A DNA stretch of 64,000 nucleotides from Gemmatimonadota bacterium. Its GTDB lineage: Bacteria; Gemmatimonadota; Gemmatimonadetes; Gemmatimonadales; Gemmatimonadaceae. Position numbers and translations under genes: made by a program. Of the stretch, positions 12,796 through 51,764 are shown in pieces (the first letter of the stretch is position 1; each line of letters begins with the position of its first letter). The notes below the pieces were generated by a model, which saw only the letters and a list, made by a program, of their open reading frames with translations, was not told the origin of the DNA and ran no database searches. The stretch spans positions 212,112 to 276,111 of the forward strand of contig JAHFCT010000001.1 in assembly GCA_023249375.1 (NCBI GenBank). The letters are read 5' to 3'.

Positions 12796-12811
12796 TGGCA
12801 CGAATTGTGCG
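12796..12811 (+). promoter_or_regulatory. Sigma-54 type promoter for flgL operon
   Basis: TGGCACG-AATT-GTGC matches the TGGCACGNNNNTTGC consensus at every fixed position except one, with the GG and GC dinucleotides 12 bp apart. Predicted start is near 12822, 46 bp before flgL. Confidence 0.7.
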
Positions 12812-12867: not shown

Positions 12868-13767
12868 ATGCGAATCACCAACAACATGGTCACCCAGCTT
12901 GCGGTGTCTCAGTTCGACACCTCACGGCAGAAGCTCGAGGAGGCCCAGCGCAAGGTCACGACCGGCAAGTCGTTCAGCTCGGCCTCGGAAGATCCCACCG
13001 CCGCCGTTTCGGTCATGGCCAACAACGGCGCGCTGCGCGCGCTCGACCAGTACAAACGGAACATCGACTCGGCGACCTCGCGCCTCTCGTTCGAGGAAAG
13101 CGCCACCAGCCAGTTGAGCGACTTGCTGAGCCGCGCCAAGGAACTGGCCGTGGCGCAGGCCACCGACACCTCGTCGCCGGAATCGCGGCAGGCTGCCAAG
13201 GCGGAGGTCAATCAGATCCTCCAGCAGGCCGTGGTGCTTGCCAACACGCAGGACGGCACCGGATTCCTTTTCGGCGGCACCAAGAGCGACCAGCCGCCGT
13301 TTACGGTGGACACCTCGGGCTCGGTGTACACGTTCTCCGCCTCGGGCGGCGCCGGCAATCGGCAGGTGGAGATTGCCGCTGGACAGCGCGCGAACACGGC
13401 GCACGATGGAACCCAGGTCTTTGGCACCACGAGCGCCGGTGTCCTCAAGACCATCCAGGATCTCGCGACGGCACTCGACACCGGAACGGCCGCGGCAGTC
13501 ACCGCGGTCATTCCCAATCTCGACTCCGCCTTTACGCACACGCAGACCGTCGTGAGCGAGGTTGGCGCGCGGCAGAACCAGATGCAGATCGCCTCGGCCA
13601 ACGTCTCGGCGTTCAGCCAGAACCTCGTGGCGCTCAACTCCAGCCTGCAAGATGTCGATCTTGAAACTGCGGTCACTGAACTGGTTGGCCGGCAAACCGC
13701 CTATCAGGCCGCCATGTCGGCCACGTCGCGGGTGATGAACCTGAACTTGACGGACTACCTGCGATGA
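12868..13767 (+). CDS. flgL: FlgL, hook-filament junction protein (HAP3)
   Basis: This 299-residue protein has flagellin-like N- and C-terminal coiled-coil segments: N-terminal MRITNNMVTQLAVSQ with SSASEDPTAA, and C-terminal DVDLETAVTEL then GRQTAYQAAMSATSRV. The end NLTDYLR is typical of FlgL. It forms the second junction layer between hook and filament. The ATG at 12868 is chosen because the sigma-54 start would be near 12822 and the protein begins with the conserved MRI. Its stop overlaps the fliW start (ATGA), so the two are co-translated. FlgK, its partner, is encoded far away at 50097. Confidence 0.93.
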   Translation: MRITNNMVTQLAVSQFDTSRQKLEEAQRKVTTGKSFSSASEDPTAAVSVMANNGALRALDQYKRNIDSATSRLSFEESATSQLSDLLSRAKELAVAQATDTSSPESRQAAKAEVNQILQQAVVLANTQDGTGFLFGGTKSDQPPFTVDTSGSVYTFSASGGAGNRQVEIAAGQRANTAHDGTQVFGTTSAGVLKTIQDLATALDTGTAAAVTAVIPNLDSAFTHTQTVVSEVGARQNQMQIASANVSAFSQNLVALNSSLQDVDLETAVTELVGRQTAYQAAMSATSRVMNLNLTDYLR

Positions 13768-14240
13768 CCCTTCCCTCCCCAGTCGAGCTGGCGATGCCCG
13801 CACGCCGCGTGGTGCGCTCGGAGTTGTTTGGCGCACTCGAACTTTCCGACAGCGATATCATCGAGTTCAGCGACGGTTTGCTGGGCTTCCCGGAGTGCCG
13901 TTCGTGGGCGCTCCTTCCCGGCACGAAGACGGGAACGGCCTGGCTGCAGTCAGCAGACCACGCCGCGCTGGTCTTCCTGCTCGTCGATCCTTTCATCTTC
14001 GTCGACGGCTACTCGGCCGAACTTTCCGACGGTGAGTTTCGCCGGCTTCAGGCCAAGGACGCCAGCGAGATCGCGGTCTTCTCGATCGTCACGCTGCCGC
14101 CACCCGGCCACCCGACGTGCACCGCCAATCTGCAGGGCCCCATCGTGCTGAACTTCAACGCGCGCCGCGGCCTGCAGGTAGTGTTGGGCGAAGGTCCCTT
14201 CGGTGTGCGCACGCCCATTCCCATGTCGGCGCTGCTCTAG
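13764..14240 (+). CDS. fliW: FliW, flagellar assembly factor and CsrA antagonist
   Basis: This 158-residue protein shows the FliW signatures IIEFSDGLLGFPECRSWALL and LVDPFIF near residues 70-76, and later SIVTLPP and ANLQGPIVLN. FliW binds CsrA and flagellin: free FliW sequesters CsrA when flagellin has been exported, allowing new flagellin translation. CsrA (51519) and fliC (15666) with a suitable leader are both in the window. The gene overlaps flgL by 4 bp. Confidence 0.93.
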   Translation: MTLPSPVELAMPARRVVRSELFGALELSDSDIIEFSDGLLGFPECRSWALLPGTKTGTAWLQSADHAALVFLLVDPFIFVDGYSAELSDGEFRRLQAKDASEIAVFSIVTLPPPGHPTCTANLQGPIVLNFNARRGLQVVLGEGPFGVRTPIPMSALL

Positions 14241-14269: not shown

Positions 14270-15478
14270 ATGCCGCTGCATCCACCGAAGATCGGCGCGG
14301 TCATCACCACGTACAATCGGCGCGACCTGCTCGGGCCGACGCTGCAGTCCGTGCTCTACCAGGACGGCGCCGATTCGTCGGTCATTGTGGTGGTCGACGA
14401 TGGTTCCACCGATGGCACCGTGGAGTACCTGCTCGACGAATTCGCCGCGGACATCGCGCACGTTGACGACCGCATTGCGGAGACATCGCTCGAGGGCAGC
14501 CCGCACGGCATGGTGCGCGTCATTCGCCAACAGAACCAGCACATTGCCGTCGCGCACAACACGGGAATCCGCGAGTTGCTGCGCCTCGAGTGCCCCTATC
14601 TCACGCATCTCGACGCCGAGGACCTCGCCTTTCCGAACAAGCATTGCGTGCTGGCGGCGTACCTCGACGCGCACCCCGGTGTCGGGCTCGTGCACGCCCA
14701 GTCGCAGGACATGTCGTTCGACGGCTTCCTTTTTTCAGAAGGCAGCGGTCCGTTCGAGCAGGTCTACCGGCGCGCGCGCCCCGAGGGCGCGTTCTGGGAA
14801 CGCGCGGCGCGCGGCGGGTTCCACGCGGGCGACCTGGCGCAGGGCAACTATGTGCACAATCAGACGACGATGTACACGCGCCGCGCGGTCACCGCGGCCG
14901 GCGAGGGGAACTGGTTCTCGGAGGGCATGCGCTACGGCTCCGACTGGACGTTCTATCAGCGGCTCGAGCGCGCGGGCGTGCCGTTTGGATTTGTTCCCGC
15001 GTACGTCGCGTTCACACGCGCACATACCGGCGGCATCTCCGGCACTCGCAGCAAAGGCCTGACGCTTGACCAAGCGCTGGTCCAGGCCGCGTCGAGCGAA
15101 GAACGGATGGAAAAAGCGGACGCCTATCAGTGGGCGCGCGCCAAGTGGCCGGCGGAGTTCGAGGAGGCGTTGCAGCGAACCGGGACCGATACAGACTTCG
15201 CCGCGCTGGCCGGTGCGCTGCAGGCGTCGCTCCGCCAGTTGGTTGACGCCGGCGATCTCGTCGATGCGCTCAATGTCGCGCATCGCATGCAGCGGCTGGC
15301 ACCGACGCCCAGCGGGCGCAGGCTCATTCGCGATCTCGTGGATGCGATCGTCGCACAGCTCGCCCACGGCGAGCCCTCCCTGCCGCTGGCCAAGCAGCTC
15401 TTCGCCCTGCAACCCTCGCCGCGGCACGCCGCGGCGCTGGCGCGGCTGCTGGCCGACGACGCGGCCGCCGTTCGCTGA
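14270..15478 (+). CDS. Family 2 glycosyltransferase, probably for flagellin
   Basis: This 402-residue enzyme has an N-terminal GT-A domain: VITTYNRRD at residues 11-19, VVDDGSTDGT near 41-50 and a metal-binding LDAED at 114-118. The last 130 residues are helical and TPR-like (repeated ALxxA helices), as in several protein O-glycosyltransferases. It lies between fliW and fliC, so flagellin is the likely acceptor, but that is contextual. The ATG at 14270, 29 bp after fliW, starts directly before the GT core; upstream in-frame starts lie within fliW and are rejected. The sugar donor is unknown. Confidence 0.82.
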   Translation: MPLHPPKIGAVITTYNRRDLLGPTLQSVLYQDGADSSVIVVVDDGSTDGTVEYLLDEFAADIAHVDDRIAETSLEGSPHGMVRVIRQQNQHIAVAHNTGIRELLRLECPYLTHLDAEDLAFPNKHCVLAAYLDAHPGVGLVHAQSQDMSFDGFLFSEGSGPFEQVYRRARPEGAFWERAARGGFHAGDLAQGNYVHNQTTMYTRRAVTAAGEGNWFSEGMRYGSDWTFYQRLERAGVPFGFVPAYVAFTRAHTGGISGTRSKGLTLDQALVQAASSEERMEKADAYQWARAKWPAEFEEALQRTGTDTDFAALAGALQASLRQLVDAGDLVDALNVAHRMQRLAPTPSGRRLIRDLVDAIVAQLAHGEPSLPLAKQLFALQPSPRHAAALARLLADDAAAVR

Positions 15479-15560: not shown

Positions 15561-15588
15561 TAAAGTAATTCACCGGTCGCGCCGATAG
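15561..15588 (+). promoter_or_regulatory. Sigma-28 type promoter for fliC
   Basis: TAAA at 15561-15564 and GCCGATAG at 15581-15588 are separated by 16 bp. Seven of eight -10 bases match the flagellar sigma-28 consensus. Predicted start near 15595 leaves a leader of about 70 nt. Confidence 0.8.
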
Positions 15589-15599
15589 ACATCACTGAA

Positions 15600-15657
15600 G
15601 CGGGACACCAAGGTCCCGCCCTCGAGGGAACGGATTCCCTCACTTATCGCCAAGGAG
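15600..15657 (+). promoter_or_regulatory. fliC leader with two hairpins and two GGA sites (putative CsrA target)
   Basis: Two perfect 7-bp hairpins follow the promoter: 15600-15619 with a 6-nt loop, and 15624-15641 with the loop CGGA. A second GGA lies in the ribosome site AAGGAG (15652-15657). A GGA in a hairpin loop plus a GGA in the Shine-Dalgarno is the arrangement by which CsrA represses hag in Bacillus subtilis. Binding here is inferred. Confidence 0.5.
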
Positions 15658-15665
15658 TAGGCCAA

Positions 15666-16547
15666 ATGCGTATCAACACCAACGTTTCCGCGATCGTCGC
15701 GAACAACAACCTCAACAAGACCCAGAACGCCATCCAGTCGTCGTCTGAGAAGCTGTCGTCCGGCTTCCGGATCAACCATGCGGCCGATGACGCTGCTGGT
15801 CTTGCCGTTGCCAACACGTTCCGTTCTGACATTCGCGCGCTCTCGCAGGCTCAGCGCAACGCGGAGCAGGCCAGCGCCGTCGTGCAGATCGCTGAAGGCG
15901 GCGTGAGCTCGGTGCAGAAGCTGCTCGAGCGTATGAAGGAACTGGCTGCGCAGGCGCACTCGGACACCGTCGGCTCGACGGACCGTGACGTCATTCAGGT
16001 TGAGTTCGCGTCGCTGATCGACGAAATCGACCGTGTGGGACAGTCGACCGAGTTCGGTGGCAAGTCGCTGCTCGACGGCAACTATGTCGGTTCGTTCCTC
16101 GTCGGCGCCGCCCGCAATGCGGATTACGCCACGTGGGATATGGCTGCCAGCGTGACGCCGGCGGCTGACGCGACGATCAACGCCCTGTACATGGACGGCT
16201 CGGTGCTTGACGTGTCCACCACGACGCTCGGCGTCGACGGCCTCGACGTGTCCGGCGATGACGGCACGGGCGCGCAGGCTGCGCTTGAAGCGATCGACCT
16301 CGCCTTCACGCAGGTCGGCACGGCGTTCGGCAACATCGGCGCCCTGCAGAACCGCCTGACCAACGCGGTCGACAACGTCAAGACGACGATCGCCAACTAT
16401 CAGTCGGCCGAGAGCACCATCCGCGACCTCGACGTCGCCACGGAAATGGTGTCGTTCAGCAAGAACCAGATCCTCGCCCAGGCCGGCACGGCGATGCTGG
16501 CGCAGGCGAACCAGAGCGGCCAGGGCATCCTGAAGCTCCTGCAGTAA
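15666..16547 (+). CDS. fliC: FliC, flagellin
   Basis: This is a short flagellin of 293 residues. The N-terminal D0/D1 region (MRINTNVSAI, SSGFRINHAADDAAGLA) and C-terminal D1/D0 region (RDLDVATEMVSFSKNQIL, ending GILKLLQ) are well conserved. The central variable part is only about 80 residues, rich in Ala, Asp and Thr, offering possible O-glycosylation sites for the neighbouring glycosyltransferases. An AAGGAG ribosome site lies 8 nt before the ATG. The codon usage (more T-ending codons early) hints at high expression. It is transcribed from its own sigma-28 promoter as a single gene. Confidence 0.96.
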   Translation: MRINTNVSAIVANNNLNKTQNAIQSSSEKLSSGFRINHAADDAAGLAVANTFRSDIRALSQAQRNAEQASAVVQIAEGGVSSVQKLLERMKELAAQAHSDTVGSTDRDVIQVEFASLIDEIDRVGQSTEFGGKSLLDGNYVGSFLVGAARNADYATWDMAASVTPAADATINALYMDGSVLDVSTTTLGVDGLDVSGDDGTGAQAALEAIDLAFTQVGTAFGNIGALQNRLTNAVDNVKTTIANYQSAESTIRDLDVATEMVSFSKNQILAQAGTAMLAQANQSGQGILKLLQ

Positions 16548-16549
16548 AC

Positions 16550-16565
16550 TGGCACGGCTCTAGCA
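16550..16565 (+). promoter_or_regulatory. Sigma-54 type promoter for fliD operon
   Basis: TGGCACG-GCTC-TAGCA matches the -24/-12 consensus in all but one fixed position and has correct GG-GC spacing. It begins two bases after the fliC stop. Predicted start is near 16576, just before the large hairpin. Confidence 0.65.
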
Positions 16566-16578
16566 GTACGGTAGGTCA

Positions 16579-16608
16579 GCTCCCGGGGTCGGTCTCGACC
16601 CCGGGAGC
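16579..16608 (+). terminator. fliC terminator hairpin, also 5' end of fliD transcript
   Basis: A perfect 13-bp GC-rich stem (left arm 16579-16591, right arm 16596-16608) has a 4-nt loop. It lacks a T tract, so it may act more as an RNA 3' stabiliser of fliC. It also sits at the predicted 5' end of the sigma-54 transcript. Confidence 0.6.
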
Positions 16609-16648
16609 CTGATCTCACCCGAAAGAAGGCTGACCAAGGAAGGACACG

Positions 16649-18784
16649 ATGGCTGATCCAACCAGTACCGTCAACGGCGTCATCAGCGGCATTCAGTGGC
16701 AGACGATGGTCGATCAGATCATCGCCCTTGAATCGCAGCGCACGGTCACGCCGCTCACGACGCAGCAAACGACACTCACCAACGCCGCCGCAGCGTGGAA
16801 GGACTTCCAGACCGTCGTCGGCAGGTTCCGCGACGCGGCCAAGACGCTGCGTGACGGCACGGCTTTTGGCAGCCTGACCGCGAGCGGCGGCACCAGTTCG
16901 ACCACCGGCCGGTCGCTCGTCAGCGCCGCCGCGTCTGCCACCGCGACGCCAGGCTCCTACAGCATTGGCGTCGAGCAGCTCGCGTCCGCCGAGAAAGTCG
17001 GCAGCGGCGTCTTCGGCTCGACGTCGGCCGCCCTCGGCATCGCCGGCGCATTTCTCATCAACGGCCGCCGCGTCACGATCACCGGCAGCGACACGCTGAC
17101 CACCGTGCGCGACAAGATCAACGCGACGAATAGCGGCGCGACCAGGAGCGGCGTGTCCGCCGCGTTCTCCAAGTCGGGGGCGGGCACGCGGCTCGTGCTC
17201 ACCTCGGATGCGACCGGATCGTCCGGCGTGGAACTCGCGGATGTTTCCGGCAGCGCGTTGACCTCGCTGGGTTTCTCCGACGGCACCGTGCACGCGAATC
17301 TCGCGGCCAACGGCGCCACGCAGTCATTCGGCGTCAGCAGCAGCACTGCGACGTTCGCCGCCCTCTGGGGCATCCCGTTGCCGTCGCCATCGACCATTCA
17401 GGTCGGAGGCCAGACGATCTCGGTGGATTTCAGCACCGACACGCTGGCGTCGATCGCCGCGCAAATCAACGCGGCGACGGGTGTGGCCAACGCGGCGACG
17501 GTCGTGCAAGAGACGAGCGGCTCGCGCACATACTCGCGGCTCGACATCACGCTCCCGGTCTCGGCGGATGCCTCGGACGCCGCGGCGAGCGCCGCGACGC
17601 TGGCCGCCCTCGGTCTCTCCGTGGGCGGCCGCGCCGATGTGGCGCAACAACTCAAGAGCGCCAACGCGTTCACCGATGATGCCGCCGGCGGAATCTCCGC
17701 GACGGGCGGCACGCTGGTGACGAATCTGTCGGCCAACGGCACCAGCCTCGGTTTGCAGTCGGGCGACGTCGTCACGATGAGCGGGCGCCGCGGCGACGGC
17801 TCAGCAGTGTCGATCGCGCTCACGGTCACCGGTGCGACGACGCTGCAGAACCTGCTGGACGCGGCCAACAGCGGCGTCGGCAGCTTCGGCGCCGGATCGC
17901 GGACCGCCACGGTCTCCGTCGTCGGCGGCAAGGTGACGGTGACCGACGGCACCGCGGGCAGCTCGCAGCTTGCGCTGTCCATCTCCGCCACCCACAGCGG
18001 CACGGGCACGGTCTCCTTTGGCGCCATCGACAGCAGCAACGGAACCGCCGGGCTCAGCCGGCAGATCGTCGCCGGACGCGACGCCCGCTTTCTCGTCGAT
18101 GGCCAGTCGTTCACGCGCCGCACGAACTCCGCGAATGACGTGATCTCGGGTGTAACGCTGAATCTGCTCGGGGCCGAATCGGGGACAACCACCGATCTCC
18201 TGATCGACCGCAACACCGACGACATCACCAAGCAGGTGCAGTCGTTCGCGTCCGCGTACAATGCGGTGCGCAACTGGGCCAACACCAACACGGCAGACGG
18301 CAAGGCGCTCGCGCATAACTCGAGCATTCGCTCGATGGTGCAGTCGCTTTCCTCTGCGCTGCTCAAGCCGCTGACCGGACTCTCCGGCCAGTACGGCACC
18401 ACAGCACTGGTGGGGCTCAGCCGCGACAAGTTCGGCGTCATGTCCGTGGACACGACCAAGCTGCAGTCGGCGCTCGAGTCGTCCTTTGACGATGTGAAGG
18501 AGCTGTTTGGCCGCACCGGCGTCGGGGGCTCGCTGTATACCGCCGCCGATTCCATCGCCCGCGACGTGACCGGCAGCGCCGCGGTGCTCTCGACCGCGAG
18601 CACCACGCACGCGGGCACCCTCGACAACCGCATCCTTGCGGCGCAGGACCGCCTCGCCACCAAGAAGGCAACGCTGACCAAGCAGTTCATCGCCATGGAA
18701 ACTGCGATGAGCAAGGCGCAGTCGATGGGCAGCTCGCTGACATCGTCGATTAACGGCCTGTTCAACTACAACAAGACGCAGTAG
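16649..18784 (+). CDS. fliD: FliD, filament cap protein (HAP2)
   Basis: This 711-residue protein is much longer than E. coli FliD (about 470). The N-terminal domain (INGVISGIQWQTMVDQIIALE-like start, then LTTQQTTLTNAAAAWKDF) and the C-terminal domain (residues about 480-705, with DLLIDRNTDDITKQVQSF and a final coiled coil around RLATKKATLTKQF) are FliD-like. The extra length is repetitive Ser/Thr/Ala/Gly-rich beta sequence in the middle, probably extra surface domains of the cap. It leads the sigma-54 operon fliD-fliS-fliT-like-glycosyltransferase. Ribosome site AAGGA lies upstream near 16637. Confidence 0.93.
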   Translation: MADPTSTVNGVISGIQWQTMVDQIIALESQRTVTPLTTQQTTLTNAAAAWKDFQTVVGRFRDAAKTLRDGTAFGSLTASGGTSSTTGRSLVSAAASATATPGSYSIGVEQLASAEKVGSGVFGSTSAALGIAGAFLINGRRVTITGSDTLTTVRDKINATNSGATRSGVSAAFSKSGAGTRLVLTSDATGSSGVELADVSGSALTSLGFSDGTVHANLAANGATQSFGVSSSTATFAALWGIPLPSPSTIQVGGQTISVDFSTDTLASIAAQINAATGVANAATVVQETSGSRTYSRLDITLPVSADASDAAASAATLAALGLSVGGRADVAQQLKSANAFTDDAAGGISATGGTLVTNLSANGTSLGLQSGDVVTMSGRRGDGSAVSIALTVTGATTLQNLLDAANSGVGSFGAGSRTATVSVVGGKVTVTDGTAGSSQLALSISATHSGTGTVSFGAIDSSNGTAGLSRQIVAGRDARFLVDGQSFTRRTNSANDVISGVTLNLLGAESGTTTDLLIDRNTDDITKQVQSFASAYNAVRNWANTNTADGKALAHNSSIRSMVQSLSSALLKPLTGLSGQYGTTALVGLSRDKFGVMSVDTTKLQSALESSFDDVKELFGRTGVGGSLYTAADSIARDVTGSAAVLSTASTTHAGTLDNRILAAQDRLATKKATLTKQFIAMETAMSKAQSMGSSLTSSINGLFNYNKTQ

Positions 18785-21389: not shown

Positions 21390-22913
21390 ATGGCCACTAT
21401 TCTGTACGTCGACGACGAACCATCGATTGGTCTGATCCTCGAGGACACGCTCGAACGTGCGGGCCACCAGTCGGTCGGCGCGCGCAGCGTCCCCGAGGCG
21501 ATGGAGGTGCTGGCGCGCGGCGGTGTCGACCTCATCATCTCGGACTACCGGATGCCTGGCCTCACCGGCCTGGAGTTCCTGAGCATCCTGCAGCGCGACG
21601 GCTACGATATCCCGCTGATCATGCTCACCGGATATGCCTCCATTGAGCACGCGGTGGCGAGCATCAAGGCGGGGGCGGTGGATTACATCACCAAGCCCGT
21701 ACGGCCGCAACAGCTCGAGCTCGCGGTGGATCAGGCACTCGAGTATGTGCGCCTGCGCCGAGAGAATGAGGCGCTGCGGCGCGAGGTGATGGAGTTCCGC
21801 AACGAGCGGCAAATCATCGGCGACAGTACGGCGATCCGGCGCATCCTGCAGACGGTGGCGATGGCGGCACCGACGCGCGCCACGGTGCTGCTGCAGGGCG
21901 AGAGTGGCACCGGCAAGGAGTTGTTTGCCCGTGCCATTCACGAGCAGAGCGACCGACGCGACCGACCATTCATCCAGCTCAACTGCGCCGCGTTGCCAGA
22001 GGGACTCATCGAGAGTTCGCTCTTCGGTCACGAGCGCGGCGCATTCACCGGCGCGGTAAAGCGGGTGGAGGGCGCGTTCGAACGGGCGCATCGCGGCACG
22101 CTGCTGCTCGATGAAATCTCCGAGATGAAGCTCGACCTGCAGTCCAAGCTCCTGCGCGTGTTGCAGGAGCAGGAGTTCGAGCGCGTGGGCGGCACGACCC
22201 CCATTCGCGTGGACGTGCGCGTCATCGCCACGACCAATCGTGACCTCGCCGCCGAGGCGGCAGCGGGGACGTTCCGGCAGGACCTGTTCTACCGACTCAG
22301 CGTGATTCCCGTGCTGATTCCGCCGCTGCGCGAGCGCAAGGACGATATTCCGTCGCTGGCCATGCGGTTCGCCGTGCGCACCGCCAGCGAGATGGGTAAA
22401 GAAGTCACCGGGTTCTCGCGCGAGGCGATCGACTACCTGCAGGATTACTCGTGGCCGGGTAACGTCCGCGAGCTGCAGCACTCGGTGGAGCGCGCCGTCA
22501 TCCTGACGCAGGACCCGATCATCCAACTGCACGCGTTCGACGCCAGTCGGTACGGGCTGACGCCGCATTCGGGGACGACCATCACGAGAGTTTCCGGCAG
22601 TTTCGCCGCGATTCCGGCTCCGAGAGTGGCGGAGTCAGCCGCACCTATTCCAACGCCAGCGGCTCCAATAGCCGCGACGCCCGTGGCGGCCGCGCCCGCT
22701 CCGGCCGCACCGGGCGCTCCACTGCGCAGCACCGGCGAGGTGCTGCTCTCGTCGCTCAATGTGAACGACGCGGAGCGCGTGCTGATACAGAAGGCTCTCG
22801 AAGCCACCGGCGGCAACCGCACCAAGGCGGCCGAGCTGCTGGGCATCAGTGTGCGCACGCTGCGCAACAAGCTGAACTCGCCATCGGACGAGGACGACGA
22901 GCTGACCGTGTGA
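21390..22913 (+). CDS. Sigma-54-dependent flagellar response regulator (FlrC/FleR/NtrC type)
   Basis: This 507-residue protein has three domains. The receiver (1-120) has the acidic pair, phosphoacceptor D52 in LIISDYRMPG, T80 and K102. The AAA+ core (about 140-375) has Walker A GESGTGKE (170-177), the sigma-54 contact loop GAFTGA (217-222), Walker B LLLDEI and the PGNVREL segment. After an Ala/Pro-rich linker (about 410-450) comes a Fis-type helix-turn-helix (LEATGGNRTKAAELLGI and SVRTLRNKLN). All motifs needed to activate sigma-54 are intact. It lies beside the flgB operon, and five sigma-54-like sites in the window are its likely targets. The cognate kinase is not obvious here; see the kinase-like gene at 51799. 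Confidence 0.93.
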   Translation: MATILYVDDEPSIGLILEDTLERAGHQSVGARSVPEAMEVLARGGVDLIISDYRMPGLTGLEFLSILQRDGYDIPLIMLTGYASIEHAVASIKAGAVDYITKPVRPQQLELAVDQALEYVRLRRENEALRREVMEFRNERQIIGDSTAIRRILQTVAMAAPTRATVLLQGESGTGKELFARAIHEQSDRRDRPFIQLNCAALPEGLIESSLFGHERGAFTGAVKRVEGAFERAHRGTLLLDEISEMKLDLQSKLLRVLQEQEFERVGGTTPIRVDVRVIATTNRDLAAEAAAGTFRQDLFYRLSVIPVLIPPLRERKDDIPSLAMRFAVRTASEMGKEVTGFSREAIDYLQDYSWPGNVRELQHSVERAVILTQDPIIQLHAFDASRYGLTPHSGTTITRVSGSFAAIPAPRVAESAAPIPTPAAPIAATPVAAAPAPAAPGAPLRSTGEVLLSSLNVNDAERVLIQKALEATGGNRTKAAELLGISVRTLRNKLNSPSDEDDELTV

Positions 22914-22935
22914 GCCGCTGGTAGAACAACACGAA

Positions 22936-22968
22936 GAGGGGACCTGAGCAAATCAGGTCCCCTCTTTT
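22936..22968 (+). terminator. Rho-independent terminator of sigma-54 activator gene
   Basis: A perfect 12-bp stem (GAGGGGACCTGA / TCAGGTCCCCTC) with a 5-nt loop is followed by TTTT, 22 bp after the stop codon. Confidence 0.9.
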
Positions 22969-51518: not shown

Positions 51519-51764
51519 ATGCTCATTCTCACCCGCCGCGAAGGAGACGCGATCTACATCGACGGGGGAGTTCGGATCGTGGTCCTGTCCGTCGATCGGA
51601 AAGGCGTGCGGCTCGGCATCGAAGCGCCGCCGGATGTGCGCATCTTGCGCGGGGAAATCGTGGCCGAGGTGGAGAGCGCCACGAAGGGCGCGGCGACGGG
51701 CGAGAGCGCCAAGCCGCTGCTCGATCAGCTCCCGAAGCCCGCGCCGCGAAAACCGGACGCGTAG
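51519..51764 (+). CDS. csrA: CsrA, RNA-binding regulator
   Basis: This 81-residue protein has the CsrA start MLILTRREGDAIYI and the key Arg44 in RILRGEI. The core is the usual about 60 residues; the C-terminal 20 residues (Lys/Pro/Ala-rich) are an extra tail. It would bind GGA motifs in leaders, notably fliC, and be antagonised by FliW (13764). Its location at the end of the flgK operon is a common arrangement. AGGGATG gives a close ribosome site. Confidence 0.94.
   Translation: MLILTRREGDAIYIDGGVRIVVLSVDRKGVRLGIEAPPDVRILRGEIVAEVESATKGAATGESAKPLLDQLPKPAPRKPDA

Follow-up and report, generated by a model that had tools for sequence, protein, structure and literature searches.

A hairpin conserved at the 3' end of flagellin messages in Gemmatimonadota, beside a lineage-specific sigma-54-like site

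Among the described systems closest to the locus studied here, the malE 3' structure (PMC5927463) follows a first gene needed in bulk, precedes genes needed less and stabilises the upstream segment of the message. SRPS operons, one flagellar operon being named among them, contain a stem-loop in an intra-operon 3'-UTR after a highly needed gene (PMC8219983). In E. coli, the small RNA FliX derives from the fliC 3' region and exists in a short form with a REP sequence (PMC10578931). With regard to transcription, RpoN and FleQ govern FliS and FliD in P. aeruginosa, and FliA does so in P. putida (PMC7286023). A CsrA-FliW-flagellin switch has been described in B. subtilis and C. jejuni (PMC4894983, PMC6529632). 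A paper on the hairpin described below was not found in the open-access literature searched, and the puf passage of an mRNA-decay review (PMC3997798) was set aside as having no bearing on the fliC stem.

We analysed a stretch of 64,000 nucleotides of Gemmatimonadota DNA (the window), taken as Gemmatimonadaceae, which belongs to contig C11; all whole-genome counts refer to its genome of 3.8 Mb. The following features are discussed:

15561 to 15588, plus strand: sigma-28 promoter of fliC, TAAAGTAA-N12-GCCGATAG, score 24.0
15600 to 15641, plus strand: fliC leader with two stem-loops, the second loop with CGGA (putative CsrA site)
15666 to 16547, plus strand: fliC, flagellin (Pfam Flagellin_N and Flagellin_C), stop TAA at 16545 to 16547
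16550 to 16565, plus strand: sigma-54-like element TGGCACGGCTCTAGCA, lineage-specific, function uncertain
16570 to 16619, plus strand: fliC 3' hairpin without a U-tract; core of 13 perfect base pairs, 16579 to 16591 with 16596 to 16608
16636 to 16644, plus strand: putative Shine-Dalgarno sequence of fliD, AAGGAAGGA, read from the sequence
16649 to 18784, plus strand: fliD, filament cap (Pfam FliD_N and FliD_C)
21390 to 22913, in the window: sigma-54 activator gene

Between fliW and fliC lies an ORF (14270 to 15478) that we take, judging from its sequence, to be glycosyltransferase-like.

Among the genomes drawn, FliD relatives were present in 83 of 179 from the family (Gemmatimonadaceae) and in 96 of 395 from the phylum. 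The regions upstream of fliD were compared in 97 relatives, or 98 sequences with the window, and a flagellin C-terminus was found directly upstream in 96. L072 and L128, which have no flagellin C-terminus before fliD, were left out, and the set analysed consists of the fliC-fliD spacers of the window and 95 relatives. Near-identical sequences occur among these 96 spacers, so that the counts are not independent.

The earlier note on this DNA had described a perfect 13-bp hairpin between fliC and fliD, and this was borne out, the pairs being closed by the loop GTCT. The minimum free energy fold extends the stem over the whole of the interval listed above, small bulges included, and the fliC-fliD spacer of the window folds with z = -2.48. 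With a score of 48.2, this is the top-scoring stem-loop of the window, in which 25 stems reach at least 30. No Rfam family matched the window at gathering score. The predicted start near 16576, which had been placed just before the hairpin, instead falls inside the lower stem, since the folded stem already begins at 16570.

As expected of a protective intercistronic hairpin, a stable stem-loop lies between the two genes in nearly all spacers. A stem score of at least 25 was obtained in 93 of the 96 spacers and one of at least 30 in 88, compared with 5.7 and 2.0, respectively, expected from dinucleotide shuffles. The stem has a median position 28 nt past the fliC stop and 30.5 nt short of fliD. 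Of 20 larger loci, 19 showed a stem of at least 30 in the 105 nt preceding fliD. Among the controls, eight other flagellar genes had 0 to 2 such stems each, and 40 were counted in 1000 random windows. A chance origin of the hairpin was ruled out by the shuffles together with these other flagellar genes.

Of 72 distinct segments, 51 entered the covariation alignment; the other 21, whose stem sequences are unrelated, were excluded by eye. In this alignment both sides had changed in 9 of 11 pairs and 97.1% of the cells were paired, a percentage raised by the fact that all 72 segments had been preselected for having a stem. None of 500 shuffles of the alignment attained any covariation measure, and pairing fell to 60–69% when the partner was slid by one column. 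Genera outside the alignment carry quite different stem sequences at the identical spacer position.

A covariance model was built, and that it locates the spacer in most larger loci follows from the way it was made. In the genome of the window, it gave the fliC hairpin as the sole clear place (33.6 bits; the next reached 23.9, with 150 of 3893 first-look candidates scored), and a general terminator hairpin is therefore unlikely. Weak additional matches were detected in L160. In G082, which has tandem flagellins, the first gene is followed by the same hairpin (L171, 1269 to 1312; stem 37.0, 44.6 bits), here with a T-richer tail; this flagellin was outside the training set of the model, and the next gene is another flagellin, not fliD. 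Exceptions are the first flagellin of G063, which has a weak stem only (25.2), and the flagellin-FliD-like junction of G135, at which no stem was found. Because it is conserved, covarying, nearly unique in the genome and present where flagellin precedes flagellin, we assign the hairpin to the flagellin mRNA rather than to fliD. Judged by these comparisons, it is an old element across the Gemmatimonadota relatives and probably keeps the flagellin message abundant. The proposal that it could end or protect the fliC mRNA is supported by its conservation, its covariation and its occurrence after a flagellin gene even without fliD.

Sigma-28 sites were scored against the sigma-28 consensus. A site of at least 18 was observed upstream of fliC in 86 of 87 sequences (relatives and window; 7.9 expected), with little variation in distance, and in the fliC-fliD spacer in only 6 of 96 (2.7 expected); the shuffles used for these counts, as for the -10 motif and the leader GGA, preserve base composition only. 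Where the hairpin is followed by at least 50 nt of spacer, the sigma-28 -10 motif GCCGA(T/C)A was found past it in 7 of 20 cases, compared with 1 among the 76 shorter spacers; in L066, one of the seven, the motif falls inside a second hairpin. The 8 nt behind the stem contain five or more T in 2 of 96 spacers, the window not among them, and the fliC 3' hairpin thus lacks the U-tract that follows the GC-rich stem of an intrinsic terminator. Over all 1305 stems, U-tract enrichment (8 following, 8 preceding) was uninformative, as the stem finder absorbs tails. Since U-tracts and spacer sigma-28 sites are scarce, transcription from the fliC sigma-28 promoter probably continues into fliD, and such read-through would be the simplest source of fliD mRNA in most members. 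The scan revealed few other promoters in the spacers, a count that covers the scored types, so that an unscored type could hide there. In the few relatives with a sigma-28 site past the hairpin, fliD need not depend on read-through. Elsewhere in the window, a T-tailed, terminator-like hairpin (22933 to 22967) follows the sigma-54 activator gene, and U-tailed hairpins hence seem available in this genome.

The -24/-12-like element that the earlier note had placed 2 bp past the fliC stop was also found. TGGCACGGCTCTAGCA (TGGCACG-N4-TAGCA) lies a little more than 80 nt upstream of the fliD start codon ATG, has GG-N10-GC at the correct spacing and deviates by an A for T at -14. It scored 15.5 on a hand-set matrix. 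When the 96 spacers plus the last 30 nt of fliC were scanned, only the window and L048 reached at least 12 (0.32 expected from shuffles), the match of L048 being inside the fliC gene; within the spacer, such a site was present in none of the 95 relatives. The 20 larger loci served as a positive control for the scoring. The gene at the flgB position, named by position (the window ORF has no Pfam match), has a sigma-54 site of 11.9–18.1 at 74–89 nt upstream in all 12 loci where it was found. For flgL, 12 loci gave matches, and 6 of the 9 clear orthologues (E below 1e-30) have a site of 13.9–16.5 at -60 to -78. A fliD match was obtained in all 20 loci, none with a sigma-54 site in the spacer.

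On a reference matrix derived from 20 sites at the flgB-position gene and flgL, some of them identical, the fliD site scored 14.2, within the leave-one-out range of 10.6–16.8, and 7 of 127,970 window positions scored as high. All 20 reference sites have T at -14. The pattern TGGCACGN4KTGC occurs six times in the genome, three of them in the window (reversed control pattern, 35), and TGGCACGN4TAGC three times (its control, 11). Sigma-54 sites were also observed in the window at 12796, 23162 and 33330, upstream of flgL, the flgB-position gene and a FlgE-like gene, respectively; the first two of these are kept in relatives. As sequences, both the match before fliD and the hairpin exceed chance, and conservation is seen only for the hairpin. 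The fliD site, rare and good but unconserved, is therefore either a recent gain or a chance match, and we consider a working lineage-specific sigma-54 promoter for fliD a tentative proposal, with the balance somewhat against it.

The reading that we favour, with a probability of about 0.58, is that the hairpin is a nuclease-protective 3' element of the flagellin mRNA in a fliC-fliD unit and sets the stoichiometry. Both genes would form one transcription unit, started at the fliC sigma-28 promoter. Because no U-tract stands behind the stem, polymerase would pass it often enough for some fliC-fliD RNA to be made. The stem would halt 3'-to-5' exonucleases, in addition to any partial termination, the fliC segment would persist and the fliD segment would decay, and one promoter could in this way provide flagellins by the thousand for every few copies of the cap protein. 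Read-through, protection and the stoichiometric effect are proposed by analogy with malE and the SRPS operons, starting from the observed presence, position and covariation of the hairpin, its attachment to flagellin, its lack of a U-tract and, in most spacers, the lack of another recognised promoter.

The capping arrangement put forward in the earlier note, in which the fliD mRNA begins near 16576 from a sigma-54 promoter at 16550 and carries the hairpin as a protected 5' end, the hairpin serving fliC as well, has a near-consensus and correctly spaced site in its favour, with a score inside the reference range, in a genome that contains rpoN and, at 21390 to 22913, a sigma-54 activator. There would be nothing odd about a sigma-54-dependent fliD as such, given the dependence of FliS and FliD on RpoN and FleQ reported for P. 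aeruginosa (PMC7286023). Nevertheless, the site is missing from the spacers of all 95 relatives although relatives retain those of flgL and the flgB-position gene, and its A at -14 departs from the T of every reference site. Further, the hairpin occurs without the promoter, and capping is thus not the reason for the hairpin. As a general design the arrangement is not supported; in this one genome, where the score lies within the conserved range, it is possible, and we regard it as unlikely though worth considering. Double use of the stem would accordingly be possible only in this lineage. A combined version, in which a flagellin 3' hairpin found phylum-wide sets flagellin over cap and has here acquired a new sigma-54 promoter, appears rather improbable; one stem would then close a sigma-28 mRNA at its 3' end and cap a sigma-54 mRNA at its 5' end.

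Termination at the stem, without a U-tract or assisted by Rho, with fliD having its own promoter, would agree with those relatives in which sigma-28 sequences lie between the hairpin and fliD (L089, score 25.0, and the seven long spacers above), with L131, which combines a T7 tract and a sigma-28 site there, and with the tail of the tandem copy in G082. Most spacers, however, lack both a U-tract and a recognised promoter, and the U-tailed hairpin at 22933 to 22967 indicates that such hairpins seem to be at hand; we therefore consider this reading rather improbable, while noting that sequence cannot separate protection from non-U-tract or Rho-assisted termination. Far less probable is a small regulatory RNA released from the fliC 3' end. 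FliX (PMC10578931) offers a precedent, but between genera the stem sequence changes while the hairpin remains, and alignment A1 shows no conserved unpaired seed.

The proposed protective 3' element may not be the only control on the flagellin message. A GGA is present in the loop of a fliC leader hairpin in 85 of 87 sequences (relatives and window), compared with 18.75 expected from shuffles. The window also contains fliW (13764 to 14240) and csrA (51519 to 51764). The leader hairpin and these two genes look like the CsrA-FliW-flagellin switch, and control of the message thus seems to act on its 5' as well as its 3' end, by leader GGA hairpins with fliW and csrA and by the 3' hairpin. An account at the RNA level of how neighbouring genes yield thousands of flagellins per few caps is seldom given, and a phylum-wide hairpin with drifting sequence and kept pairing makes the question of the flagellin/cap ratio directly testable. 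The better finding is this phylum-wide flagellin 3' hairpin, rather than the double use of promoter and hairpin.

Compared with the systems described at the outset, the hairpin resembles FliX (PMC10578931) in being a structured part of the 3' region of fliC. A REP element is present in FliX-S, whereas no sign of a small RNA was seen here. Sigma-54 control is the feature shared with the RpoN-dependent cap gene fliD of P. aeruginosa (PMC7286023), in contrast with which the site found here is unconserved in the relatives studied. The closer resemblance appears to be with known protective intercistronic hairpins of the malE and SRPS types. As in the SRPS operons (PMC8219983), a stem-loop follows a highly needed gene in what would be an intra-operon 3'-UTR, here in a different phylum. 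Like the malE structure (PMC5927463), it stands after a first gene needed in bulk and before one needed less, and it differs in being a single clean stem-loop after flagellin that is found phylum-wide with changing sequence.
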